Origin: Gigantopelta aegis
Lineage: Eukaryota; Mollusca; Gastropoda; Neomphalida; Peltospiridae
Direction of reading: 5' to 3'
Assembly (NCBI RefSeq): GCF_016097555.1
Contig: NC_054713.1
Location: forward strand, 8,792,867-8,856,866
Length of the DNA: 64,000 nt
Each line of letters opens with the position of its first letter. Within the stretch, counting starts at the first letter, position 1. The position numbers and the translations under genes are program-made. Below, piece by piece: positions 1-53,225 of the stretch. A model generated the notes under the pieces. That model was not told the DNA's origin. It did not search any database and saw only the letters and a list, made by a program, of their open reading frames with translations.

Positions 1-3000
1 CTACCACTGAACTATGCCTCTACCACTGAGCTACGACTCTACCACTGAGCTATGTCTCTACCACTGAGCTATGTCTCTACCACTGAGCTATGTCTCTACC
101 ACTGAGCTACGACTCTACCACTGAGCTACGACTCTACCACTGAGCTATGTCTCTACCACTGAGCTACGACTCTACCACTGAGCTACGACTCTACCACTGA
201 GCTACGACTCTACCACTGAACTATGTCTCTACCATTGAGCTATCTACCGGTGAGCTGTCTCTACCACTGAGCTGTTTTTACCAGTGAGCTGTCTCTACTA
301 CTGAGCTGTCTGTACCAGTGATCTGTTTCTACCACTGAGCTGCCTCTACCAGTGAGCTATCTCTACCAGTGAGCTGTCTCTACCAGTGTGCTATCTACCA
401 CTGAGCTGTCTCCACAACTGAGCTGTCTCTACCACTGAGCTGTCTCTACCACTGGGCTGTCTCTACAACTCAGCTGCCTCTACCACTGAGCTGTCTCTAC
501 AACTGGGCTGTCTCTACCACTGAGCTGTCTACCACTGACCTGTCTCCACAACTGAGCTGTCTCTACCAGTGAGCTGTCTACCAGTGAACTGTCTCTACCA
601 GTGAGCTATGTCTCTACCACTGAGCTGTCTCTACCACTGAGCTGTCTCTACCACTGGGCTATGTCTACCAGTGAGCTGTCTACCAGTGAGCTGTCTCTAC
701 CAGTGAGCCGTCTCTACCACTGAGCCTTCTCTACCACTGAGCTGTCTACCACTGAGCTGTCTCTGCCACTAAGCTGCCTCTACCCCTGAGCTGTCTCCAC
801 CACTGAGCTGTCTCCACCATTGAGCTTACTCCACCACTGAGCTGTCTCTACTACTGAGCTGTCTCTACCACTGAGCTGTCTACCAGTGAGCAGTCTCTAC
901 CAGTGAGCTGTCTCTGCCACTGAGCTGTCTCTACCCCTGAGCTGTCTCCACCACTGAGCTGTCTCCACCATTGAGCTGTCTCTATCATTGAGCTGTCTAC
1001 TAGTGAGCCGTCTCTACCAGTGAGCCGTCTCTACCACTGAGCTGTCTACCACTGAGCTGTCTCTGCCACTGAGCTGTCTCTACCCCTGAGCTGTCTCTAC
1101 CACTGAGCTGTCTACCACTGAGCTGTCTCTGCCACTGAGCTGTCTCTACCCCTGAGCTGTCTCCACCCCTGAGCTGTCTCCACCATTGAGCTGTCTCTAC
1201 TACTGAGCTGTCTCTACCACTGAGCTGTCTACCACTGAGCCGTCTCTACCAGTGAGCCGTCTCTACCACTGAGATGTCTACCACTGAGCTGTCTCTGCCA
1301 CTGAGCTGTCTCTACCCCTGAGCTGTCTCCACCACTGAGCTGTCTCCACCATTGAGCTGTCTACCACTGAGCTGTCTCTGCCACTGAGCTGTCTCTACCC
1401 CTGAGCTGTCTCCACCCCTGAGCTGTCTCCACCATTGAGCTGTCTCTACTACTGAGCTGTCTCTACCACTGAGCTGTCTACCACTGAGCCGTCTCTACCA
1501 GTGAGCCGTCTCTACCACTGAGATGTCTACCACTGAGCTGTCTCTGCCACTGAGCTGTCTCTACCCCTGAGCTGTCTCCACCACTGAGCTGTCTCCACCA
1601 TTGAGCTGTCTCTACCACTGAGCTGTCTACCAGTGAACTGTCTCTACCACTGAGCTGTCTCTACCAGTGAGCTGTCATCCACTGAGCTGTCTCTACCACT
1701 GAGCTGTCTCTACCACTGAGCTGTCTACCAGTGAGCTGTCTACCACTGAGCTGTCTACCACTGAGCTGTCTCTACCACTGAGCTGTCTACCAGTGAGCTG
1801 TCTCTGCCAGTGAGCTGTCTACCACTGAGCTGTCTACCACTGAGCTGTCTCTACCACTGAGCTGTCTACCAGTGAACTGTCTCTACCAGTGAGCCGTCTC
1901 TACCAGTGAGCCGTCTCTACCACTGAGCTGTCTACCAGTGAGCCGTCTCTACCACTGAGTTGTCTCTACACCTGAGCTGTCTCTACCACTGAGCTTTCTC
2001 CACTATTGAGCTTTCTCCACCACTGAGCTGTGTCTACCACTGAGCATTCTCTACCACTGAGCTGTCTCCACCATTGAGCTGTCTCTACCACTGAGCTGTC
2101 TCCACCATTGAGCTGTCTCTACCACTGAGCTGTCTACCAGTGAACTGTCTCTACCACTGAGCTGTCTCTACCAGTGAGCTGTCATCCACTGAGCTGCCTC
2201 TACCACTGAGCTGTCTCTACCACTGAGCTGTCTACCAGTGAGCTGTCTACCACTGAGCTGTCTACCACTGAGCTGTCTCTACCACTGAGCTGTCTACCAG
2301 TGAGCTGTCTCTGCCAGTGAGCTGTCTACCACTGAGCTGTCTACCACTGAGCTGTCTCTACCACTGAGCTGTCTACCAGTGAACTGTCTCTACCAGTGAG
2401 CCGTCTCTACCAGTGAGCCGTCTCTACCACTGAGCTGTCTACCAGTGAGCCGTCTCTACCACTGAGTTGTCTCTACCCCTGAGCTGTCTCTACCACTGAG
2501 CTTTCTCCACTATTGAGCTTTCTCCACCACTGAGCTGTGTCTACCACTGAGCATTCTCTACCACTGAGCTGTCTCCACCATTGAGCTGTCTCTACCACTG
2601 AGCTGTCTCCACCATTGAGCTGTCTCTACCACTGAGCTGTCTACCAGTGAACTGTCTCTACCACTGAGCTTTCTCTACCACTGAGCTGTCTACCACTGAG
2701 CTGTCTACCAGTGAGCTGTCTACCACTGAGCTGTCTACCAGTGAGCTGTCTACCACTGAGCTGTCTCTACCACTGAGCTGTCTACCAGTGAGCTGTCTAC
2801 CAGTGAGCTGTCTACCACTGAGCTGTCTACCACTGAGCTGTCTCTACCTCTGAGCTGTCTACCAGTGAGCTGTCTCTACCAGTGAGCCGTCTCTACCACT
2901 GAGCTGTCTACCAATGAGCCGTCTCTACCACTGTGTTGTCTCTACCCCTGAGCATTCTCTACCACTGAGCTGTCTCCACCATTGAGCTTTCTCCACCACT

Positions 3001-3175
3001 GAGCTGTGTCTACCACTGAGCTGTATCTGCCACTGAGCTGTCTACCAGTGAGCTGTCTCTACCAGTGAGTTGTCTCTACAACTGAGCTGTCTATACCAGT
3101 AAGCTGTCTCTACCAGTGATCTGTCTCTACCAGTGAGCAATATCTCTGCCACTAAGCTGCCTCTTTACCCAAGAT
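1..3175 (-). repeat. Minisatellite of tRNA A-box-like units
   Basis: A continuous tandem array starts before the window and stops near 3175. Units are 15-19 bp and alternate among variants such as gagctgtctctaccact and gagctacgactctaccact. Read on the minus strand, the units in about the first 240 bp contain TAGCTCAGTGGTAGAG, which matches the tRNA D-arm/Pol III A-box consensus TRGCNNAGYGG exactly. Most later units read CAGCTCAGTGG and differ at the first base. No B-box (GGTTCGANTCC) was seen. Longer blocks repeat inside the array, giving higher-order structure. Origin from a tRNA or SINE head is an inference; the array itself is plain. Confidence 0.95.
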
Positions 3176-15027: not shown

Positions 15028-17173
15028 GTAGGTTGCTTGACGTATTGTTAGAATTAAAGTTTTGTTCAACGACACCACTAGATATACGAATTACTCAATC
15101 TGTTATTTAGGTATTAAACATTTTGTTAATTTTTTATACCTAGCTTTAGAAAGAAGAAAAGAAATGTTTTATTTAACGACACACTCAACACATTTTATTT
15201 ATGGTTATATGGCGTCAGACATAAGGTTAAGGACTACACAGATATTGAGAGAGGAAACCTGCTGTCGCCACTTCTTGGGATACTCTTTTCGATTAACAGC
15301 AAGGGATCTTTTTATATGCACTTTCTGACAGACAGGACAACACATACCACGGCCTTTGATTATCAAGTCGTGGTACACTAGTTGAGATGGGGGAAAATCC
15401 AACCAGAGAATGGGTCCACTGAGGTTGCTCGATCCTTCGACGCAGGAAATACAAGCTAGGGCTCTATTGACTGAGTTAGACCCCATCATGTAAATTTTAT
15501 TTCATTTTAAACTTATTTTCGTGCTTATATCTAATTAAGATTCAAGCACGCTATCCTTGGCACACACCTCATAGATCTACCTGGAAAGTACCTTAGTGTG
15601 ATAGAAGTCACTGTATTGACAATACACCTACCCAGATGAGTCGTTGAAACACGTTCTGTGTAGAATCCGGTACCGAGGTACGAACCCGAACCAGTAGCTA
15701 CCAGTCTTAATTCCGATAGCTCAACCACTTCACAATAGAGTATGGTAGGGGAGATACAAAGTTGCACAATCATTTTTATTTTTATACGCGATGTCCCATT
15801 TACAATGCTGTATGTAGCCTAATTAAAAGATTATAAGTGAAAAACTAAAAGAAAATTGTGCATTCGTTGATTTAAAAAAAAAGAGCTACATTTCATACTT
15901 TTTATGGTCTAAGTTAATAAAAAAAGAGCTACATTTCATACTTTTTATGGTCTAAGTTAATAAAAAAAGAGCTACATTTCATACTTTTTATGGTCTAAGT
16001 TAATAAAAAAAGAGCTACATTTCATACTTTTTATGGTCTAAGTTAATAAAAAAAGAGCTACATTTCATACTTTTTATGGTCTAAGTTAATAAAAAAAGAG
16101 CTACATTTCATACTTTTTATGGTCTAAGTTAATAAAAAAAGAGCTACATTTCATACTTTTTATGGTCTAAGTTAATAAAAAAAGAGCTACATTTCATACT
16201 TTTTATGGTCTAAGTTAATAAAAAAAGAGCTACATTTCATACTTTTTATGGTCTAAGTTAATAAAAAAAGAGCTACATTTCATACTTTTTATGGTCTAAG
16301 TTAATAAAAAAAGAGCTACATTTCATACTTTTTATGGTCTAAGTTAATAAAAAAAGAGCTACATTTCATACTTTTTATGGTCTAAGTTAATAAAAAAAGA
16401 GCTACATTTCATACTTTTTATGGTCTAAGTTAATAAAATGTGTTGCCGAAAATGAAAGCGTAACTATGATAAAGTCAATGTATAATAATGTACGAAATTT
16501 TATGTTTTAGATTTTTTTTCCCCAACATTCATAATAATACATTATCACTTGGAGTTAAGCAAGGTGAACTTCTATCACATTATTTATTTATATTGTTTGT
16601 TAACAATATTCAGTGTGAACCTTTTGATATTCTTGATCCATTTAGATTTCTAAAAGACATTAAATAAATTGAGTAACAATCTGGGCAAGTGAATTTTAAA
16701 ATCCAATCACTCTACGGAAAGTGAATAAAAAGCAAATATTGAAACCCAGATTAACGACACATTCGTTCGTATTTCAACAATGTGCCATGTGTTCAGCTAC
16801 CAAAAGAAACATCGCAAAATCGCATTACACATCTCTGTGCAAACATACGTAATAAAAAATGTACTTTTTTTTTTTTTAGACAATTCGTCTGAACAGTTAA
16901 ATCGGGAAAAGCGACACGCGGTGAGTATTATATTTATTTATCTCCTTACAGAGAAGACACTTTTAATACACACCAACCAGAAGATAATGTTTTGATTAAT
17001 TTCATGCTACGATAAACAAAAAGCTGTTCGCGTAGCAATGGTAGGTACAAGTATGTATAAACTGTTTAAATAAACCTCCCCGTGTTTGTTGTGGTTGTAA
17101 CATGTTTCCGGCTAACAGAACATTTTAACGACTAACATTATACAACAAATATAATGTGTGCGACATTCAAAAA

Positions 17174-31786: not shown

Positions 31787-32012
31787 ATGTCTGGGGACGA
31801 TGAAAACGAAACCGGTGTCGGACAACACCGGAACATCAACCTTGAAATCGAATACGACCATGAGGACAGCGACAACATCCCCTTCACCATCGTCTACTGC
31901 ATTTTCATCCTGCTCATCATCATCGGCAACAGCATGATTCTCACTGTGATCATCTGGAGGAGAGAACTGAAAACGCCGAGAATCGTGTACATCGTGTCCC
32001 TCATCACATCAG
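31787..32012 (+). CDS. GPCR copy 1 exon 1 (N-terminus, TM1, ICL1)
   Basis: Preceded by an acceptor ctttcaccag at 31745-31754 and ends at CATCAG with donor gtaaaa. Encodes the acidic N-terminus, TM1 and TPRIVYIVSLITSG. Confidence 0.85.
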
Positions 32013-32275
32013 GTAAAACAAAATTGTTTCTGTTTAGCGACACCACTGGAGTACTTTGAGTAATTAATCACCAGCTATTGGATGTAAAACATTTGGAAAT
32101 TCCTACTCGTAGTCATGAGAGGAAACCCGCTAAATTTGTGTTCTAATACAGTAAGGGATCTGACAGACAGACAGACAGACGCACATAGGCCTACATGCAA
32201 CCAAACAGACAAACAAAAAGAAAGAAAAAAAAATGAACGAAGAAAAGAAAGAAAGATAGATAAGCAGATAAATAA

Positions 32276-32318
<43 letters not shown>

Positions 32319-32331
32319 GATAGGTATATAA

Positions 32332-32378
<47 letters not shown>

Positions 32379-33400
32379 TAATGAATAAATGAAACAAGAA
32401 TGAAGAAAGAGTAAGAAAGAAATACAGAGAGACAGAAAGAAAGACCTATATTAATCGTCTTGCATTAGTACAGTCAGTAAAACATTTATTTGAACTTTCA
32501 GATATGATGGTGGCTTCCATCGTCATCCCTCTCGCCATCTTAACGCAGTATAAACTATTCCTGGGATCGTCCGTCGTCTGCAAGATTACCATGTTTCTCA
32601 AATACGTCACCGTAACCGCCAACCTGTACTGCATCGTCGCCATAGCAACGGACCGTCACCAAGTCATCATGAGCATCTTCAAGTCGAGACCGCAGAAATC
32701 GCGATCGGCTCTGTTCGTGTTCTTCGTCTGGATGTTTGCGGCTCTTTACAGTCTTCGGCCGGGCTTCACGTATGGCCTGACGCACCACGAGGACAAGGTC
32801 ATACGCCAGCACATGCACATGAACCACTCCCTGGACAGTGTGGAACACGAACACATGCGGAACGAGACGGACTTCTTGACGCACACGACGTGCGGGCTGG
32901 AATTCGAGCGGTTCCGCCACCTCTTCATCATCCTCGACTTCCTCATCATCTGTCTGCTCCCGCTCTTCATCATCAGCGTCCTGTACATCCGGGTGATCGC
33001 GTGGCTCGTGCGGCAGAGGAAGAGGAACTGCGCAGTCTCGAGGACGAAGAACCAGAACGTGAAACTCATCCAGATGGTCCTGGTGATTGTGGTCACCTAC
33101 ACCGTCTGCCAGCTGCCCTCACACGTCTTCCAGATGTACGTCTACTTCGGGCCCGGCGTCGACAACGACGCAGAGTTCATCTACGACGTCCTCACCATCT
33201 TCACCTACTTGAACAGCGTCCTCAACGTCTGCATCTACTCCCTGTTCGACACTAGGATTTACCGTTTCGTCAAGATGGCCTTCTGCTGTGATCGCACGGT
33301 CTCCGTTCAGGACATTGCCAGCATCTCACAGACTCCCACGTCACCGCGTAGTGGCCGCTCTGCTGCGAACGGAAGGACGCCTCCAAATTCTTACTTGTGA
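31787..33400 (+). CDS. Rhodopsin-like GPCR, copy 1
   Basis: Two exons, 31787-32012 and 32502-33400, give 374 residues. Start MSGDDENETG has an N-glycosylation site. TM1 is PFTIVYCIFILLIIIGNSMI with the conserved GN. TM2 carries Asp2.50 (SGDMMVASIVIPLAIL), whose codon is split by the intron. TM3 ends AIATDRH, a DRY variant. TM4 has the conserved Trp (FVFFVWMFAAL), ECL2 is long and His-rich with CGLE for the TM3 disulfide, TM6 has CQLP instead of CWxP, and TM7 has NSVLNVCIY in place of NPxxY. CC near the tail could be palmitoylated. It is a plasma-membrane receptor, probably for a peptide, but I cannot name the ligand. AATAAA follows the stop at once. An ATG further 5' would put an intron-like tract and the acceptor into the protein, so 31787 is chosen. 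Confidence 0.9.
32055..32400. repeat. SINE fragment and (GATA)n in GPCR copy 1 intron
   Basis: A minus-strand type A SINE tail (agcgacaccactggagtac) opens the intron; (gata)n follows at about 32275-32378. There is no 34-bp array here. Confidence 0.8.
32502..33400 (+). CDS. GPCR copy 1 exon 2 (TM2 to C-terminus)
   Basis: Acceptor gaactttcag, then G+AT completes Asp2.50. The exon runs to the stop TGA at 33398-33400. Third positions are C/G-rich compared with the AT-rich surroundings. Confidence 0.93.
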
Positions 33401-34720: not shown

Positions 34721-34787
34721 ACCTCTTCTCATTCTCTGTATTTAAAAAATTGGTTTATGTTTTAAGTTGGACACGTAATGCCTTCGT

Positions 34788-37190
34788 TAGATAGGCATTT
34801 CTCGGGATGGTTGTAGTTAGATAGGCATTTCTCGGGATGGTTGTAGGTAGATAGGCATTTCTCGGGATGGTTGTAGTTAGATAGGCATTTCTCGGGATGG
34901 TTGTAGTTAGATAGGCATTTCTCGGGATGGTTGTAGTTAGATAGCCATTTCTCGGGATGGTTGTAGTTAGATAGGCATTTCTCTTGATGGTTGTAGTTAG
35001 ATAGGCATTTCTCGAGATAGTTGTAGTTAGGTAGCATTTCTGGGGATGGTTGCAGTTAGATAGGCATTTCTCGGGATGGTTGTAGTTAGATAGGCATTTT
35101 TCGGGATAGTTGTAGTTAGATAGGCATTTCTCGGGATGGTTGTAGTTAGATAGGCATTTCTCGGGTTGGTTGTAGTTGGTTGTTGTAGTTAGATAGGCAT
35201 GGTTGTTTTCGGGATGGATGGTTGTAGTTAGATAGGCATTTCTCGGGATGGTTGTAGTTAGATAGCCATTTCTCGGGATGGTTGTAGTTAGATAGGCATT
35301 TCTCGGGATGGTTGTAGTTAGGTAGGCCTTTCTGGGATGGTTGTAGTTAGATAGGCATTTCTCTGGATGGTTGTAGTTAGATAGGCATTTCTCGGGATGG
35401 TTTTAGTTAGATAGGCATTTCTCGGGATGGTTGTAGTTAGATAGGCATTTATGGGGATGGTTTATAGTTAGGTAGGCATTTCTCGGGATTATTTTAGTTA
35501 GATAGGCATTTCGCCGGATGGTTGTAGTTAGATATGCATTTCTCGGGATGGTTGTAGTTAGATAGGCATTTCTCGGGATGGTTGTTGTTAGATAGGCATT
35601 TTCCGGTATGGTTGTAATTAGATTGGCATTTCTCGGGATGGTTGTAGTTAGATAGGCATTTCTTGGGATGGTTGTAGTTAGATAGCCATTTCTCGGGATG
35701 GTTGTAGTTAGATAGGCATTTCTCGGGATGGTTGTAGTTAGTTATTTTTCGGTAGGCCTTTTTGGGATGGTTGTAGTTAGATAGGCATTTCTCTGGGATG
35801 GTTGTAGTTAGATAGGCATTTCTCTGGATGGTTGTAGGATGGCATTTTTTAGTTAGATAGGCATTTCTCGGGATGGTTGTAGTTAGATAGGCATTTATGG
35901 GGATGGTTTATAGTTAGGTAGGCATTTCTCGGGATTATTTTAGTTAGATAGGCATTTCGCCGGATGGTTGTAGTTAGATATGCATTTCTCGGGATGGTTG
36001 TAGTTAGATAGGCATTTCTCGGGATGGTTGGGATAGGCATTTTCCGGTATGGTTGTAATTAGATTGGGCTTTTCTTGGGATGTTGTAGTTAGATAGGCAT
36101 TTCTCGGGATGGTTGTAGTTGATAGGCATTTTAGATTGGCATTTCTCGGGATGGTTGTAGTTAGATAGGCATTTCTCGGGATGGTTGTAGTTAGATAGGC
36201 ATTTCTTGGGATGGTTGTAGTTAGATAGGCATTTCTCGGGATGGTTGTAGTTAGATAGGCATTTCTCGGGATGGTTGTAGTTAGATAGGCATTTCTCGGG
36301 ATTAGATTAGCCATTTTGTAGATAGCATTTCTCGGGATATAGGCATTTCTCGGGATGGTTGTAGTTAGATAGGCATTTCTCGGGATGGTTGTAGTTAGAT
36401 AGGCATTTCTCGGGATGGTGTAGTAGATAGCATTTTAGCCATTTCTCGGGGTGGTTGTAGTTATATAGGCATTTCTCGGGATGGTTGTAGTTAGATAGGC
36501 ATTTCTCGGGATGGTTGTAGTTAGATAGGCATTTCTCGGGATGGTTGTAGTTAGATAGGCATTTCTCGGGATGGTTGTAGTTAGATATCCATTTTTCGGG
36601 ATGGTTGTAGTTAGATAGGCATTTCTCGGGATGGTTGAAGTTAGATAGGCATTTCTCGGGATGGTTGTAGTTAGATAGGCATTTCTCGGGATGGTTGTAG
36701 TTAGATAGGCATTTCTCGGGATGGTTGTAGTTAGCCAGTTTAGATAGGCATTTCTCGGGATGGTTGTAGTTAGATAGGCATTTCTCGGGATGGTTGTAGT
36801 TAGATAGGCATTTCTCGGGATGGTTGTAGTTAGCCATTTCTCGGGGTGGTTGTAGTTATATAGGCATTTCTCGGGATGGTTGTAGTTAGATAGGCATTTC
36901 TCGGGATGGTTGTAGTTAGATAGGCATTTCTCGGGATGGTTGTAGTTAGATAGGCATTTCTCGGGATGGTTGTAGTTAGATATCCATTTTTCGGGATGGT
37001 TGTAGTTAGATAGGCATTTCTCGGGATGGTTGAAGTTAGATAGGCATTTCTCGGGATGGTTGTAGTTAGATAGGCATTTCTTGGGATGTTTGTAGTTAGA
37101 TAGGCATTTCTCGGGATGGTTGTAGTTATATAGGCATTTCTCGGGATGGTTGTAGTTAGATAGGCATTTCTCGGGATGGTTTTAGTGTAC
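34788..37190 (-). repeat. 30-bp minisatellite, about 80 copies
   Basis: The unit contains ataggcatttctcgggatgg and ttgtagttag. Being 30 bp it keeps frame, so the minus strand shows open decapeptide repeats (NYNHPEKCLS). Copies vary by substitutions and partial units, with blocks repeated at longer range (about 36430-36730 and 36835-37130). No start context or domain supports a real protein. Confidence 0.97.
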
Positions 37191-42751: not shown

Positions 42752-42900
42752 GTTCACTACAAGGCCACTACACCGACTACTCTCTCACTAACCACTAACC
42801 CACTGTTCTAGACAGACAACCCAGATTGCTGAAGTGACAGCGTCCTTGAACGTTAATTTGATATAAGCACAAAAGATATGTTCAAATGAAATGAATGAAC
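42752..42900 (+). mobile_element. Truncated type C SINE upstream of GPCR copy 2
   Basis: Same truncation zone and same distance to the exon as 31530-31680, so it is a shared ancestral insertion. Confidence 0.75.
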
Positions 42901-43012
42901 AATTTATAAAATGTTTAATCAATAGGTATCAAAATCACTAAAACATGTTTTATCAATTGTATTTATTTGTCTTTCACCAGCCGACTTTGCATTTGTAAAA
43001 CACCGCCAGCCA

Positions 43013-43244
43013 ATGTCCGTGCACGATGAAAACGAAACTGGTTTCGGTGTACACCTGAACCAGAAAATCAACCTTGAAATCGATTACGACCATGTAGACA
43101 ACGACAACATCCCCTTCACCATCGTCTACTGCATTTTCATCCTGCTCATCATCGTCGGCAACAGCATGATTCTCATTGTGATCATCTGGAGGAGAGAACT
43201 GAGGACTCCCAGAAACGTGTACATCGTGTCCCTCATCACATCAG
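43013..43244 (+). CDS. GPCR copy 2 exon 1
   Basis: Ends VYIVSLITSG at CATCAG with donor gtaaat. The final part of this exon plus the donor is the founder unit of the adjoining array. Confidence 0.85.
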
Positions 43245-46200
43245 GTAAATATCTACATCGTGTCCCTACTCACATCAGGTCAATATCTACATCGTGTCCC
43301 TCATCACATCCGGTCAATATCTACATCGTGTCCTTTATCACATCAGGTAAATATCTACATCGGGTCCATCATCACATCAGGTCAATAAATACATCTTGTT
43401 CCTCATCCCGTCAAGTCAATATCTACATCGTGTCCCTCATCAGTTCAGGTTAATATCTACATCGTGTCCCTCATCACATCAGGTCAATATCTACATCGTG
43501 TCCCTCATCACGTCAGGTCAATATCTACATCGTGTCCCTCATCACATCAGGTCAACATCTACATCATGTCCCTCATCACATCCGGTCAATATCGACATCG
43601 TGCCCCTCATCACATCAGGTCAATATCTACATCTTGTCCCTCATCACATCACGTAAATATCTACATCATGTCCCTCATCACATCACGTCAATATCTACAT
43701 CGTACCCCTCATCACATGAGGTAAATATCTACATAGTGTCCCTCATCACATCAGGTCAATATCTACATCGTACCCCTCATCACATCAGGTCAATATCTAC
43801 ATCGTGTCCACCATCACGTCAGGTAAATATCTACATCGTGTCCCTCATCACATCAGGTCAATATCTACATCGTACCCCTCATCACATGAGGTAAATATCT
43901 ACATAGTGTCCCTCATCACATCAGGTCAATATCTACATCGTACCCCTCATCACATCAGGTCAATATCTACATCGTGTCCACCATCACATCAGGTCAATCA
44001 CAACGTATATCTACATCGTCCCTCATCACGTCAGGTAAATATCTACATCGTGTCCCTCATCACATCAGGTCAATATCTACATCGTACCCCTCATCACATC
44101 AGGTCAATATCTACATCGTGTCCACCATCACATCAGGTCAATAAATATATCTTGTCCCTCATCACGTCAGGTAAATATCTACATCGTGTCCCTCATCACA
44201 TCAGGTCAATATCTATATCGTGTCCCTCATCACATCAGGTAAATAAATACATCGTGTCCCTCATCACATCAGGTCAATATCTACATCGTCTCCCTCATCA
44301 CGTCAGGTCAATATCTACATCGTGTCCCTCATCACATCAGGTCAATATCTACATCATGTCCCTCATCACATCAGGTCAATATCGACATCGTGCCCCTCAT
44401 CACATCAGGTCAATATCTACATCTTGTCCCTCATCACATCACGTAAATATCTACATCATGTCCCTCATCACATCACGTCAATATTTACATCGTACCCCTC
44501 ATCACATGAGGTAAATATCTACATCGTGTCCCTCATCACATCAGGTCAATATCTACATCGTGTCCACCATCACATCAGGTCAATAAATATATCTTGTCCC
44601 TCATCACATTAGGTCAATATCTACATCGTGTCCCTCATCATATCAGGTCAATATCTACATCGTGTCCCTCATCATATAGGTCAATATCTACATCGTGTCC
44701 ATCATCACATCTGGTCAATATCTACATCTTGTCCCTCATCACATCACGTAAATATCTACATCATGTCCCTCATCACATCAAGTCAATATCTACATCGTAC
44801 CCCTCATCACATCAGGTCAATATCTACATCGTGTCCACCATCACATCAGGTCAATAAATATATCTTGTCCCTCATCACGTCAGGTAAATATCTACATCGT
44901 GTCCCTCATCACATCAGGTCAATATCTATATCGTGTCCCTCATCACATCAGGTAAATAAACACATCGTGTCCCTCATCACATCAGGTCAATATCTATATC
45001 GTGTCACTCATCACATTAGGTTAATATTTACATCGTGTCCCTCATCACATCAGGTCAATATCTTCATCGTGTCCCTCATCACATCAGGTCAACATCTACA
45101 TCGTGTCCTTCATCACATCAGGTAAATATCTACACCGTGTCCCTCATCACTTCAGTTCAAAAACTACATCGTGTCCCTCATCACATCAAGTAAATATCTA
45201 CATCGTGTCCCTCATCACATCAGATCAATATTTACATCGTGTCCCTCATCACATCAGGTCAATATCTTCATCGTGTCCCTCATCACAGCAGGTCAATATC
45301 TACATCGTGTCCTTCATCACATCAGATAAATATCTACATCGTGTCCCTCATCACATCAGGTCAATAAATACATCTTGTCCCTCATCGCATCAAGTAAATA
45401 AACACATCGTGTCCCTCATCACATCAGTTCAATAACTACATCGTGTCCCTCATCACATCAAGTAAATATCTACATCGTGTCCCTCATCACATCAGATCAA
45501 TATTTACATCGTGTTCTTCATCACATCAGGTAAATATCTACATCGTGTCCCTCATCACATCAGGTCAATAAGTACATCTTGTCCCTCATCGCATCAGGTA
45601 AATAAATACATCGTGTCACTCATCACATCAGGTAAATATCTACATCGTGTCCTTCATCACATCAGGTCACTGTCTCCATCGTGTCCCTCATCACATTAGG
45701 TCAATGTCTCCATCGTGTCCCTCATCACATCAGGTCAATAAATACATCTTGTCCCTCATCGCTTCAGGTCAATGAATACATCTTGTCCCTCATCACATCA
45801 GACTAATATCTACATCGTGCACCTCATGACATCAGGAAAATATCTACATCGTACACCTCATCACAGCAGGTAAATATCTACATCGTGTCCCTCATCACAT
45901 CAGGTAAATAAATGCATCGTGTCCCTCATCACATCATGTCAATATCTACATCTTGTCCCTCATCACATCAGGTCAATATCTACATCGTGTCCCTCATCGC
46001 ATCAGGTCAATATCTATATCGTGTCCCTCATCACATCAGGTCAATAAATACATCTTGTCCCTCATCGCATCAGGTAAATAAATATATCTTGTCCCTCATC
46101 ACGTCAGGTAAATATCTACATCGTGTCCCTCATCGCATCCAGTCAATATCTATATCGTGTCATTCATCACATCAGGTAAATATCTACATCGTGTCCCTCA

Positions 46201-48652
46201 TCACATCAGGTAAATATCTACATCGTGTCCCTCATCACATCAGACCAATATCTACATCGTGCACCTCATCACATCAGGTCAATATCTACATCGTCATCAC
46301 ATTAGGTCAATATCTACATCGTGTCCCTCATCACATCAGGTAAAGAAATGCATCGTGTCCACCATCACATCAGGTCAATATCTACATCGTGTCCACCATC
46401 ACATCAGATCAATATCTACATCGTGTCCCTCATCACATCAGGTCAATATCTACATCGTGTCCCTCATCACATCAGGTCAATATCTACATCGTGTCCACCA
46501 TCACATCAGGTCAATATCTACATCGTGTCCACCATCACATCAGATCAATATCTACATCGTGTCCACCATCACATCAGGTCAATATCTACAGGGCGGACCT
46601 ACGATTTAGTAAAGGAGGGGAGGGTGGTGGTGAAAGAATCTAATTTGCGTTTTTCGCAAAGAGAGCATAATTTTTAGGGAGATTCGTGGCCATGTGCCCA
46701 TTAAAAGTTGGAAATAAAGATTTTAAGAGACGTGTTTTCGGGGCAGTTTAATTTATAAAACCAAAACCAAAGTCATTTAAAAAGGCATTTTGTTAATTAT
46801 CTGCAACATGCTCACTAGAACCTTGGATAATTATCTGTAGTATGTTCCTTGTCATCTCGGGTAACTAACTACAGTTGCCGCTTAACACTTTATGTTAACT
46901 GTCGTCTACAATTCTCATGAGATCTGGGCCCATGCTTATATAACTTTTAGAGTCCAGACTCAATCTCTAATGAGGTCACACGCATACAATTTGTATGGCG
47001 TGTTTTCATGACATTACTGTCGCAGACTCTATTAGAGTCTCGAGTCTAGACTCCAATGCCGCCACACACGTACAATTCGTATGACGTTGTCATGGCATTA
47101 CTGTCGCAGACTCTATTAGAGTCTCGAGTCTAGACTCTAATGCCGCCACACACGTAAAATTCGTATGGCGTTGTCATGGCATTACTGTCGCAGACTCTAT
47201 TAGAGTCTCGAGTCTAGACTCTAAATCTGTTATAAGCACCAGGCCAGGTTCCTGCATTGTGTCCCTCGTACACCTATCTACGCTTTATCCATCAGCACCA
47301 CAGGGCGTGCAGGAATTTTAGCAGGGTTGGGTCTAGACTGACGACCAAAGTATAATGGGGGGACAACTATCTACAACATACCCTTAGGAAATTCGTGTAA
47401 TTATGATATACCAGTCGTGGTGCAATGGCTGGGACGAGAATAGCTCTTCATACTTACAGGGATTAGTATCTATATCATGCTCTTCAAAACCACGGGTAAC
47501 TGAATACATTATGACTCTTACAACATCGGGCAAATATCTACATTATCCCCTTAGGATATCCGGGTAATTATCTACATCATGGTGCCCCGGGAAATATATT
47601 GAATAAAAAAGAACATTTGCTTGAGCAAGGAGGGGATTTGACCCCAAAACCTTTCTCCCTGCACCTGCGAACGCATTTAACTATCAGCACTTAGAACCTC
47701 AATATTGTGTCCACCGTTACCTGAGGTAACCATCTAGATTGAGTCCCTTAGAATACCAGGTAAGTATCAGTAACGTGTCCCTCATCATATCGGTTATCTA
47801 ACTATTCATACCATGTCCCTTTATTACTGACCGGCCTCGGTGGCGTCGTGGCAGGCCATCGGTCTACAGGCTGGTAGGTACTGGGTTCGGATCCCAGTCG
47901 AGGCATGGGATTTTTAATCCAGATACCGACTCCAAACCTTGAGTGAGTGCTCCGCAAGGCTCAGTGGGTAGGTGTAAACCACTTGCACCGACCAGTGATC
48001 CATAACTGGTTCAACAAAGGCCATGGTTTGTGCTATCCTGCCTGTGGGAAGCGCAAATAAAAGATCCCTTGCTGCTAATCGGAAGAGTAGCCCATGTAGT
48101 GGCGACAGAGGGTTTCCTCTCAAACTCTGTATGGTCCTTAACCATATGTCTGACGCCATATAACCGTAAATAAAATGTGTTGAGTGCGTCGTTAAATAAA
48201 ACACTTCTTTTTCTTTCTTTTTTTATTACTGCGAGCAACTATCTACTTTGTAGCGATCCGACAGACAGTGAGACAGACATATATACGCACGCATGCACAC
48301 GTACATACACACAACCAATGAATGAATGAATGAATGAATGAATGTTTAACGACACCCCAGCACGAAATATACATCGGCTATTGGGTGTCACACTATGGTA
48401 AAGATTTAAATAAAAACACAGTGTAAAGAACTGTGCAAAAATACAAACATCACAGATAGATACTGACTTTTACTAAAAATTTCAATTTTCGCTGTATTGG
48501 CCATTCTCAAAGAGAATGTTACACCCCTGCACCACGGTAGGGTTACAGCAGGCGCAGGGGAACATGCAACCATACACACATAGACAGAAAGGAAGGAAGA
48601 AAGAAAGAAAGAGAGAGACAGAGAGAAAGACGGAGAGACAGAAGGAAAGAAA

Positions 48653-48693
<41 letters not shown>

Positions 48694-49603
48694 AATGAGA
48701 AAGAGATACACACAGACTTATAGTGATTGCCTTGCTTAGTAACAGTTACTAAACCATTTATTTGAACTTTCAGATTTGATGGTGGCTTCCATTGTCATCC
48801 CTCTCGCCATCTTAACGCAGTATAAACAATTCCAGGAATCTTCCTTCGTCTGCAAGATTACCATGTTTCTCAAATACGTCACCGTCACCGCCAACCTGTA
48901 CTGCATCGTCGCCATAGCAACGGATCGTCACCAAGTGATCATGAGTATCTTCAAGGCGAGACTGCAGAAATCGCGATCGACTCTGTTCGTGTTCTTCGTC
49001 TGGATGTTTGCGGCTCTTTACAGTCTTCGGCCGGGCTTCACGTACGGCCTGACGCACCACGAGGATAAGGTCATAGACCAGCACATGCACATGAACCACT
49101 CCCTGGACAGCGTGGAACGCGTGCACGTGCAGAACGAGACGGACTTCGTGAATCACACGATATGCGGGCTGGAGCTCGAGCGGTTCCGCCACCTCTTCAT
49201 CATCCTCGACTTCCTCATCATCTGTCTTCTCCCGCTCCTTATCATCAGCGTCCTGTACATCCGGGTGATCGCGTGGCTCGTTCTGCAGAGGCAGAGAAAC
49301 TACGCGGTCTCGAGGACGAAGAACCACAACGTAAAGCTCATCCAGATGGTGCTGGTGATTGTGGTCACCTACACTGTCTGCCAGCTGCCCTCACACGTGT
49401 TCCAGATGTACGTCTACTTCGGGCCCGGCGTCGACAACGACGCAGAGTTCATCTACGACGTCCTCACCATCTTCACCTACTTGAACAGCGTCCTCAACGT
49501 CTGCATCTACTCTTTGTTCGACCCTCGGATTTACCGTTTCGTCAAGATGGCCTTCTGCTGTGATCGCACGATCTTAGTTCAAGACATCGCCAGCACCTCA
49601 TAG
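43013..49603 (+). CDS. Rhodopsin-like GPCR, copy 2
   Basis: Exons 43013-43244 and 48774-49603 give 353 residues, closely similar to copy 1 throughout. N-terminus MSVHDENETG, TM1 with GNS, SGDLMVASIVIPL in TM2 (copy 1 has DMM), ATDRH after TM3, CQLP in TM6, NSVLNVCIY in TM7. The reading frame stops at TAG (49601), 22 codons short of copy 1, although the following sequence still resembles copy 1's tail in the same frame. The intron has grown to 5.5 kb through a 34-bp array, a B2 SINE and others. Splice sites look intact, but whether exon 1 is spliced correctly past about 100 donor-like repeats is open. Ligand unknown. Confidence 0.85.
43245..46594 (+). repeat. 34-bp array derived from exon end plus splice donor
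   Basis: About 100 head-to-tail units begin directly at the exon 1 donor. Each unit reads atctacatcgtgtccctcat then cacatcag and gtcaat or gtaaat. The first 27 bases copy the exon (IYIVSLITSG), the rest copies the donor. Variants such as accctcat, ccaccat and tataaat are scattered. The array ends at about 46594. Confidence 0.97.
46775..47820 (+). repeat. Strongly diverged relics of the 34-bp unit
   Basis: Segments such as gataattatctgtagtatgt (46830), gcaaatatctacattatccc (47530) and agtaacgtgtccctcatcat (47770) keep the order tatct-acat-cctc-atc-gggtaa of the unit. They look like old array members interrupted by other insertions. Confidence 0.6.
46928..47240. mobile_element. GGGCCC foldback MITE with internal repeats
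   Basis: The left end gggcccatgcttatataac pairs with the right end gttataagcaccaggcc. An 84-bp unit with cgcagactctattagagtct and gagtctagactc palindromes is present three times inside. Ends are like those of the element at 52948. Confidence 0.75.
47830..48231 (+). mobile_element. Type B2 SINE in GPCR copy 2 intron
   Basis: Full length; duplication tttattactg at 47820-47829 and 48232-48241. Confidence 0.92.
48317..48565 (-). mobile_element. LINE-tailed retroposon, uninterrupted
   Basis: About 245 bp, same ends as 39484-40965. The minus-strand 3' end carries acacccaatagccgatgtat, gtgctggggtgtcgttaaac and (attc)n. Confidence 0.75.
48590..48700. repeat. (GAAA)n microsatellite
   Basis: gaaa/gaga runs about 75 bp before the GPCR copy 2 exon 2 acceptor. 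Confidence 0.95.
48774..49603 (+). CDS. GPCR copy 2 exon 2
   Basis: Acceptor gaactttcag as in copy 1; begins AT to complete Asp2.50. Ends at an early TAG after DIASTS. Confidence 0.9.
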
Positions 49604-49892
49604 TTTCCCATGTCACCGCGTATCGGCCGCTCGGCGACGAATGGAAGGACGCCTCCAAACTGGTATTTTTGAAAGTAAACTGTTTTTAGCAGACAGGGAA
49701 ACATGGTATCTGTCATGGATGAAAGAGTTGGCTCGAGTCAGAACCTTTGCGCCCATGGCAGGCGTGTGTTACAACAGCTTGTTGTGAACGTGAACGTAAA
49801 GCACTAATTCACTCACTTTCTCAACCATGGTGTAAAATGTGTTTAGGAAGTTCGCAGGAAAGGTACAGGCTCATACAGATTGATATAGATAT

Positions 49893-50335
49893 ATACCTGA
49901 TGTGATGAGGGACATGATGTAGATATTGACCTGATGTGATAATGCGATGTAGATATTGACCTGATGTGATGAGGGACACGATGTAGATATTGATCTGATG
50001 AGATGAGACACACGATGTAGATATTGACCTGATGTGATGAGGGACACGATGTAGATATTGACCTGATGTGATGAGGGACACGATGTAGATATTGACCTGA
50101 TGTGATAAGGGAAAAGATATAGATATTGACCTCATGTGATGAGGGATACGATGTAGATATTGACCTGATGTGATGAGGGACACAATGTAGATATTGACCT
50201 GATGTGAGAAGGGAAAAGATGTAGATATTCACCTGATGTGATAAGGGACACGATGTAGATATTGACTTGATGAGATGAGGGACACGATGCAGATATTGAC
50301 TTGATGTGATGACGGACACGATGTAGATGCCAAAA
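49893..50335 (-). repeat. Inverted array of the 34-bp unit
   Basis: About 13 units of the same GPCR exon/donor repeat in reverse orientation (cacctgatgtgatgagggac, acgatgtagatattgac), starting about 290 bp after the GPCR copy 2 stop. It is directly followed by a LINE fragment. Confidence 0.95.
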
Positions 50336-50540
50336 CGTCCTGCACATAATGTGGTTTTGATAACAAATTTATGAAATATGGGAAGCCAAATGCCGTCCGA
50401 ACATCTGGTCTTCGCATTAAGCAGTTTTTATCAGTTTCCAACATTGATTTAATGGACAATTCCCTGTTTCAAAAGCCCTCACTCTGTTTGTCCGAGACAG
50501 TGGAAGATAGGCCACAGGAGGACCAGGTAATGGCTTTGAT
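50326..50540 (+). mobile_element. Fragment of an RNase-H-type LINE
   Basis: Encodes KPNAVRTSGLRIKQFLSVS, nearly the same as at 55420-55480 (NAIRTFGLRIKQFLSVS) in the larger LINE. Only this short part remains. Confidence 0.75.
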
Positions 50541-53225
50541 CTGTAATGTTTGCAAGTATTGCAAAACTTAATGATGGATTTCACTCGACTTCTTAACGTT
50601 TCTACCCAGTATGTTTCTCTCACTATTACCATGGTCATAGCAACTCCACCGTGTAGCGTGATAGCTTGAGTATTCAGTATAATCATATTCGTCAACTGAT
50701 GATCAGTAGGAAGATAAATTGGATACTCTCCAATGATACGTCCTCTGCATCGAAACATTCCATTTACATCCTCTTGAAGCTGAAGTTGCTTTGCAGTCTC
50801 AGTATATGTTTCATGTAAAGTTGCATCCTTTTGTGCGAACTTTATCCAAAGTAATTCAGCATTCTGAATATCCTGTGGTGTTAATATTTCTCTTAATTTC
50901 GGTTTTCATGGAAGGTAATTAACAAACCTTAGGATCCATCCAGTTACTAGTAAACGTTTCCAGAAGGAAAACGTTTCCAGTAGATTATTGAAAGTGTTTT
51001 GAGTTTCTTTCAGTGCTGTCGTGTGCAGTTCTTTTGTCAGCTTAGCCTCTTCATCAGTTTCCTCACTTCTACTGATAAGCATTTCGAGTGGCCAACTCTC
51101 ATTGTGAAATAACCACGAAGGTTCATTAAACCAGAGCATAGATATTTGATTTTCTTTAGCACCTCGACTTCCAATATCTCCAGGATTTTCAGAAGTAGGG
51201 CGGAGTTTCCAAGTTATACAACTATACTGATTGATCTTTTCCACCCAGTTAGACACAAATTGTTTTGACTGACCATGGCGATTGTTAATCCGGTAGAGTG
51301 CTACTGCAATATCCAGTTATGCATATTTATTAATTATCGTGTAGCCCTCCATAGCCATTTTCACATTCTACATTAGGTTAACCAACATGTGACCAGATTT
51401 AAGTTCCAACCTTGGTATAGAAATACCTCTCTTAGATATTCTTCACTTGGCTGTTAGTGAACCGTGACTAAGCTGATTGCCTTGATAAACAACTGCGTAA
51501 GCAACGCAGCTGCATCCCAATTTACTAGCATCTCCATAGCCATGAAGTTCAATTCCTGTTACTTTGGTATATGTGGTTGGTATGCTCCTAGGTACAGAGT
51601 TGTTCAGGAAGATACCCAAGCCATTTCTTCCACAAACTTTCCATTTCTATTGACAAAAGTTTATCACATGAATTACTGTTGTCACAAGCCAGACGACAAA
51701 GAGTTTATCTTCTAGCAGAATTGGTGAGGCAAAATCTAGTGGATCATACACCTTTGCCAAAGCACGTAGCATACCTGTTTTAGTTTACTCAGTGGTCGCT
51801 TTGCATTCAGAGAAATCAACTGCTAGAGTCCTCAAGTTTATCCCATTTCATTCCAAGTATCATAGTATCAGCTGAATCTACCTCTAGACTTTCTTCAGCG
51901 TAGGTTTGCTCAATATCACACTTTGCAATTGATTGCAGGGGTTCTAGATTATGGTAGCCCCACTCCCATGACAAGTGATATTCAATGTTGGGTTAGCAAA
52001 TAACTGCTATTGCCATGCCCGATGGCTAATGCATTTTTTTGTCAAATGTTGCAGTTAAGTCTATTTTTTTAAATATGTAAATATGAATACCCTGCCCCAA
52101 CCCCAACTCTCCAATGTTAGTGTTTTTAAGCTCTATCTCCCTCTTTAGGTGACATCTGATTACTATTATTATTTAGTAACCTTTTATTAACTTAAAGAAA
52201 AGTAGGGCTAGTGAATTTTTAATCATGGCTAGTGATTGCTCTAATTCTGGAACATTAGACTGCCATTTATGTAGGGAGAACCCACCTTCCTTGAAGATTT
52301 GCACAGCATCTTCCTTAAAAGCAAGAACATCCGAAACAATATTTCTAGCATTATCTACATAAAAAGACCTTTTCCAAGTTCTAAAGTTGTTCTCGTGTAG
52401 ATAAATAGAGTTTCAAATGTTCTTTTGAAGTTCCACCTAGTAGGAAGGGACTAGGACCATATCCAAATATCACTCTTGTGAACCGGAGTTTGATAATTTC
52501 TAGAGATCTGAATGAATACTCGTTTAATAACTCCAATTAGTGTTATCGGTTCCAGACGGTTCCTCGTTAAAACGGTGTGCAACAGTGGTTGTGATGAGGG
52601 TCTGATGTGCAAACAATCATTTAATGACGATGAAGTGTTATTTTCCCGAGCTGAGGCATCACAAATAATTCTCATTTTTGGTAGTTTCAGCCTTCTTTCG
52701 GATAACAGGTCTGTGTGGCATGTAAAACAGATGTTTTCCAGATAGTACTTCAGGGGCATGTTCCAGCTGTTTAGTAATTATCACAGATTTCACGAAATAT
52801 AGGGCACTTGTATTGCCGTTTCCAGTACTCATCAGCGTCCATCCAAAGAGCGTTTCGTCAGCAGTTGGATTGGCAGTGACACTGAGTGTTTTCCTATTTT
52901 ACAAGTTAGTTTTAATTCTTGCAAAGTCTCCCGCCCCAAGAATAAGGGCCCGTGCTTATAAAATTTAAAGTCTAGACTTTAATAAAGTCCAGACTTTAAC
53001 GTAATGCTATTTGAATGGTGTTCCCATGACGTTAAAGTCTGGACTTTATTAAAGTCTAAACTTTAAGGTTTATAAGCACGGGGCTTGATGAATTGCGTGT
53101 TACTGTAACTGAGTTCAGCTCTCTCATCTTCGTTGTCACATTTCAGATCCTGGATATGCTGAAATGTTATCTTGAGTGGTGTTGTTCAGCACAGTTATTA
53201 CTGGCCGATTCAAACTTATTTGACC
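50400..53225 (-). mobile_element. BEL/Pao LTR retrotransposon pol (fossil)
   Basis: Minus-strand pieces match BEL/Pao pol in order: a reverse-transcriptase piece with RIICDASA and SLNDCLHIRPS (about 52450-52760), the RNase H-to-integrase linker with ENPGDIGSRG and NEPSWL (50906-51256), and the integrase zinc-binding region with RETYWVETLRS and CNTCKHYRSKPLPG (50417-50758). No LTRs were identified. It is broken in many places and looks old. A hairpin MITE is inserted at 52948-53087. Confidence 0.8.
52948..53087. mobile_element. GGGCCC hairpin MITE in the BEL/Pao fossil
   Basis: A near-perfect palindrome of about 140 bp: left arm gggcccgtgcttataaa and taaagtctagactttaataa, right arm the inverse, ending tttataagcacggggc. 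Confidence 0.85.

Follow-up and report, generated by a model that had tools for sequence, protein, structure and literature searches.

The closest described systems are amphioxus repeats in which exon-intron boundaries are duplicated in tandem; they are reported in globin genes (PMC3087553), had earlier been named 'mirages' in Adh3 (Canestro 2002, as cited in PMC3087553), and also occur in PGBD5 and troponin C (PMC3902484). According to the available portions of these sources, many mirage units carry AG/GT, array length varies by haplotype, and regular splicing is undisturbed as judged by RT-PCR (PMC3087553). Where the same portions give figures, amphioxus mirages outside Adh3 have 2 to 7 units of 60 to 160 bp. 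The Adh3 units are 10 to 72 bp long, and a further globin gene has degenerate repeats in one of its introns.

A human parallel is IFI6 (6-16), whose minisatellite has a 12-bp unit. By its title, an article by Turri, Cuin, and Porter from 1995 reportedly describes this minisatellite as having multiple splice donor sites. The accessible part of a further report states that the repeat units are used as splice donors (PMC4526556). A preliminary description of the locus presented here, made from the sequence alone, held that no class of satellite seeded by a 5' splice site had been described; that claim fails because amphioxus mirages and the IFI6 minisatellite, as set out in these partial texts, precede it.

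Two other kinds of repeat are relevant. Intron 3 of an abalone TSSK1-like gene contains a minisatellite with a 27-bp unit and 62 repeats in the copy shown; like the snail array it is intronic and from a gastropod, and its repeat number varies among individuals, but the portion of text available does not place it at an exon-intron boundary (PMC6905558). Introns are also described as arising when an AGGT segment or an intron-exon boundary is duplicated in tandem; in the available text, this process shares with the snail array the crossing of a splice boundary and the inheritance of splice signals (PMC4974935). A literature search found no molluscan exon-intron mirage, which does not prove that none has been described.

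Gigantopelta aegis is a deep-sea vent snail. In the window, a 64-kb stretch of its genome, one of two related receptor genes has its exon end and splice donor repeated 99 times within the intron. This array is very probably a mirage-type minisatellite that formed from the exon-intron junction of the gene, grew, decayed at its distal edge, and is spliced at the first donor; by comparison with the described systems, it is best read as an unusually large mirage in a mollusc. In the sources as available, such minisatellites have hitherto been described for amphioxus, with IFI6 as a human parallel, and this reading would place one in a mollusc, with a copy number far above the amphioxus figures given there and with an old, decayed edge that is still readable.

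Two receptor genes with a shared intron position

Both genes are on the plus strand and code for rhodopsin-type receptors (Pfam 7tm_1); in a sequence comparison with solved structures, the top scores went to neuropeptide Y, neuromedin U, and apelin receptors. Gene 1, the paralog (31787-33400), has the donor GTAAAACAA and the plain 489-bp intron noted in the preliminary description, and its spliced product is identical to P0002 ('neuropeptide Y receptor type 1-like,' Gigantopelta aegis). Gene 2, about 10 kb from this array-free copy, has a first exon at 42981-43244 (ATG at 43013) that ends in the seed of the array, a 5529-bp intron at 43245-48773 with CAGGTAAAT as its first donor, and a second exon at 48774-49603 that codes for the remainder of the receptor through the stop; the acceptor AG ends at 48773, as had been proposed. 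Exon 1, from the first donor, joined to exon 2 gives a product identical to P0001 ('apelin receptor-like,' Gigantopelta aegis), although the P0001 and P0002 records may be predictions only. Upstream of the seed exon is a pyrimidine-rich, acceptor-like site, read by eye, with a likely acceptor AG ending at 42980.

The intron is at the same codon in the two genes, and the exon of the paralog closes with the same 25 bases as that of gene 2, in one copy and with no array. These 25 bases encode the start of TM2 in a conserved reading frame. The genes align across 42948-43249, through the exon end and GTAAA, and again at 48572-49709, with weaker matches from 48252, so the extra sequence in gene 2 begins right behind the donor. 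Intron gain by tandem duplication was considered and rejected, since the intron position is common to the paralog, the only relative for which DNA was compared; duplications of that type create an intron, whereas none was gained in gene 2.

At the sequence level gene 2 is open and constrained, yet it is changing faster than its paralog. Overall, the dN/dS ratio between the genes is 0.32; exon 1 gives 0.49 (with only 20 differences) and exon 2 gives 0.28 (bootstrap 0.16-0.49). With P0003 taken as the outgroup, an assumption that the pairwise counts fit, gene 2 has 12 unique residues over 274 sites and gene 1 has 3 (p = 0.035). The genes are identical to each other at 249 of these sites and match P0003 at 232 (gene 1) and 223 (gene 2), while 29 more sites are common to both genes and 10 are different in all three sequences; no locus encoding a relative of P0003 was found in genome_contigs or viral_contigs. 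The faster change of gene 2 fits relaxed use as well as adaptation and does not separate the two, and the extra unique residues together with the shorter C terminus would also fit a partial loss of function. The tail of gene 2 (49560-49603) is shorter than that of the paralog, with predicted products of 353 and 374 aa, respectively.

A 34-bp unit that crosses the exon-intron boundary

The main array occupies 43220-46590 on the plus strand and was reported by TRF with a period of 34, 99.1 copies, and 86% matches. Cyclic alignment resolves it into 99 head-to-tail units plus 4 bases, with the borders of units 23 and 24 approximate because of an insertion at that point, and mean pairwise identity among the units is 0.873. 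Each unit consists of 25 exon bases, TACATCGTGTCCCTCATCACATCAG, followed by 9 intron bases that in most units read GTCAATATC or GTAAATATC. Unit 1 is the genuine exon end (43220-43244) and donor, without a gap. The preliminary description was therefore right that a receptor exon end and its donor are amplified about 100-fold within the intron and that the array adjoins the true donor; its count of 27 exon bases per unit and its array start at 43225 are both slightly off.

As in amphioxus mirages, to the extent that the available text describes them, the units are minisatellite-like, cross an exon-intron boundary, and carry AG/GT splice signals in many but not all copies: GT is retained in 89 of the 99 units and AGGT in 74. 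The amphioxus figures of 2 to 7 units stand against 99 here, and the long decayed tail and the inverted array past the gene, both described below, are further differences. Of 7994 scored candidates, none was a protein relative of the translated stretch 43720-44511 at E <= 0.001, and no RNA family matched at gathering scores within 42900-50500.

Both genes have the same protein-coding exon end, so the likely direction is from exon to array. Alternatively, a dispersed satellite of independent origin might by chance share the exon end or have overwritten it. This would account for a second array outside the gene and for the abundance of other minisatellites in the window, but on the evidence of this one window it is considered very unlikely because those 25 bases also close the coding exon of the paralog, in a conserved frame and with no array. 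A search with the 25-mer, allowing up to 3 mismatches, gave 106 matches in the whole window (maximum of 0 in 100 shuffles), of which 1 is the paralog exon, 95 are in the main array (unit 1 counted), and 10 are in the inverted array (49897-50325), with none elsewhere in this single 64-kb window. By the preliminary description, lack of the match in the paralog exon would have refuted its reading; the match is present.

An array of this size could also reflect a repeat collapsed or inflated during assembly. A published host assembly, not necessarily the one containing this window, was built from PacBio subreads with Canu correction and wtdbg2, but its correction step kept reads of at least 8 kb, compared with an array of 3.4 kb, according to the part of that report available (PMC7895826). 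Moreover, the units differ along the array, and decayed units and an inverted copy are present. An artifact is thus extremely unlikely as the source of the array, although the copy number may be off from the true value.

Decayed units and an inverted array

Between the main array and the acceptor, the plus-strand interval 46821-47820 contains decayed 34-bp units amid other sequence, identified by profile matches and by site spacing. The preliminary description mentions neither these units nor the inverted array. A two-unit profile scored 71.6 bits against 46600-47822, with 7 hits (two overlapping), whereas 500 shuffles peaked at 14.1; among 112 control stretches elsewhere in the window, which overlap each other and exclude the arrays and the paralog exon end, there was no hit of 4 bits. 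Donor-like sites in this region are still 34 bases apart (47496/47530/47564 and 47726/47760). Because the site-spacing pattern cannot match GTCAA, donors in the decayed units were typed from the profile alignments, in which the +3 base, counted manually, is A at 7 of 8 readable sites, T at 1, and C at none, with one further site obscured by an insertion. The decayed units are thus mostly +3 A, compared with GTCAAT in 56 of the 99 main-array units, which suggests that the majority GTC form of the main array is derived. In the part of the amphioxus report available, the degenerate intronic repeats of a further globin gene offer a comparison for these decayed units.

An 84-bp tandem repeat of 3.1 copies (46965-47224) is situated amid the decayed units. 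The decayed part of the intron is followed at 47820-48230 by a presumed tRNA-SINE-like element.

Just past gene 2, TRF reports 13 copies of the unit on the minus strand (49882-50328). Homology to the 3' flank of the paralog stops at 49879, immediately before this inverted array. By manual count, GTCAAT is present in 10 of the 13 units, so the inverted array probably came from the grown array and not anew from the exon. The same majority, a trait of the grown array but not of unit 1, further argues against an independent satellite. Beyond the inverted array, at 50417-51316, are minus-strand open frames that we take to resemble the integrase region of a BEL/Pao-type retrotransposon.

Probable origin and growth of the array

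The main array contains block duplications of 9 units at a lag of 23 and of 6 units at a lag of 21, with no more than one difference per unit; among 1000 shuffles of unit order, the longest run was 6, seen once. Turnover by block duplication is thus evident within the array, as in the mirage type. Divergence shows no clear gradient along the main array in 9 bins of 11 units.

From these features we infer an order of events. A tandem duplication across the junction of an apelin/NPY-receptor-like gene would have created the 34-bp unit of 25 exon and 9 intron bases, and the duplicate, sitting in the intron behind an intact first donor, would have been tolerated. The array probably grew to 99 units by unequal exchange, together with block duplication, while its distal edge would have decayed and one piece would have ended up inverted past gene 2.

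Donor strength and predicted splicing

Donor types differ among the units, with GTCAAT in 56 of 99 and GTAAAT in 27, and the full CAGGTAAAT donor is present in 18, unit 1 counted. Donors were scored with a 5' splice-site matrix and the U1 5' end, and on this matrix 71 of the 89 GT units score below unit 1, 18 are equal to it (unit 1 counted), and none is better. GTCAAT, the weaker form, is thus the more common one. The preliminary description had many units keeping CAGgtaaat, which holds for 18 of them, and called the array a run of near-perfect decoys, which overstates their strength given the 71 lower-scoring units and the 56 with GTCAAT. Along the array there is no trend for GTA units (p = 0.67) or for CAGGTAAAT units (p = 0.30), and selection keeping strong donors near the exon was dismissed in the absence of a positional trend in donor type. 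Among 98 copies, G+1 is changed in 9, G-1 in 12, and T+2 in 3, within a range of 0 to 32 across all columns.

The 18 units with the same 9-base donor, unit 1 counted, mean that use of the first donor is not implied by donor strength. The first donor, as strong as that of any unit, is the one closest to the upstream acceptor-like site ending at 42980, and together they would define a 264-base exon; this closeness would favor its use, and most likely splicing proceeds from this donor. Internal donors would be minor sites at most, mostly yielding frame-shifted, unstable messages.

A functional role for the repeated donors is quite improbable. Under this alternative, about 90 downstream donors would compete for U1 or for the acceptor and lead to retention or nonsense products that dampen the receptor, with a strength set by array length. 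The idea that decoy splice sites can promote intron retention is already described, in the sources as available, and retention of the gene 2 intron is predicted to reach a stop after 146 codons; the retention of GT in 89 units and AGGT in 74, the identical donor in 18 units (unit 1 counted), and the faster change of the array-bearing gene (12 to 3) would also fit. Nonetheless, the majority donor is the weaker one, neither GTA nor CAGGTAAAT units show a trend along the array, the splice bases show no special conservation among the 98 copies, exon 2 is still constrained, and the amphioxus precedents are reported with normal splicing in the text available.

The reading frames of the 89 GT donors bear on what internal splicing would produce: 57 are predicted to shift frame, as the preliminary description had anticipated for internal donors, suggesting that such shifts could tune or silence the receptor, and 32 are in frame. 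A stop-free receptor is predicted only from donors 1, 4, and 7, so not every internal donor would break the protein. Unit 4 (43322-43355, plus strand) has the CAGGTAAAT donor, with its GT at 43347, and its use would add 102 nt in frame without a stop, giving 34 more aa followed by a re-created TM2 start. A low-level isoform from this donor, its intracellular loop 1 lengthened by the 34 residues (by 68 with the donor of unit 7), is unlikely as judged from the predicted product, though it may coexist with the mirage reading. The candidate has a parallel in IFI6, where repeat units further downstream reportedly serve as donors (PMC4526556, available portion), whereas the internal donors of the snail array are predicted candidates. 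Intracellular loop 1 is short in receptors of the rhodopsin type. An insert of this kind in loop 1 would likely be harmful.

A broader version of the same idea, in which early units are live donors, unit 4 gives the in-frame form with 34 additional residues, and other donors lead to decay, would make the array a splice rheostat; from sequence we consider this distinctly unlikely. If true, the array would be length variable and receptor output would depend on its composition. Under the preferred reading of a mirage-type minisatellite spliced at its first donor, the locus offers a natural test case for the choice of a single donor from about 90 similar ones spread over 3.3 kb.

Other repeats in the window

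Three further tandem arrays are present in the window. A 17-bp array of about 190 copies (1-3164) starts at the first base of the window, and a 30-bp array of about 80 copies is located between the two receptor genes at 34786-37186 and does not match the 34-bp unit. The third, at 15872-16438, has 13 copies of a 43-bp unit with 99% matches and looks like a recent tandem expansion.
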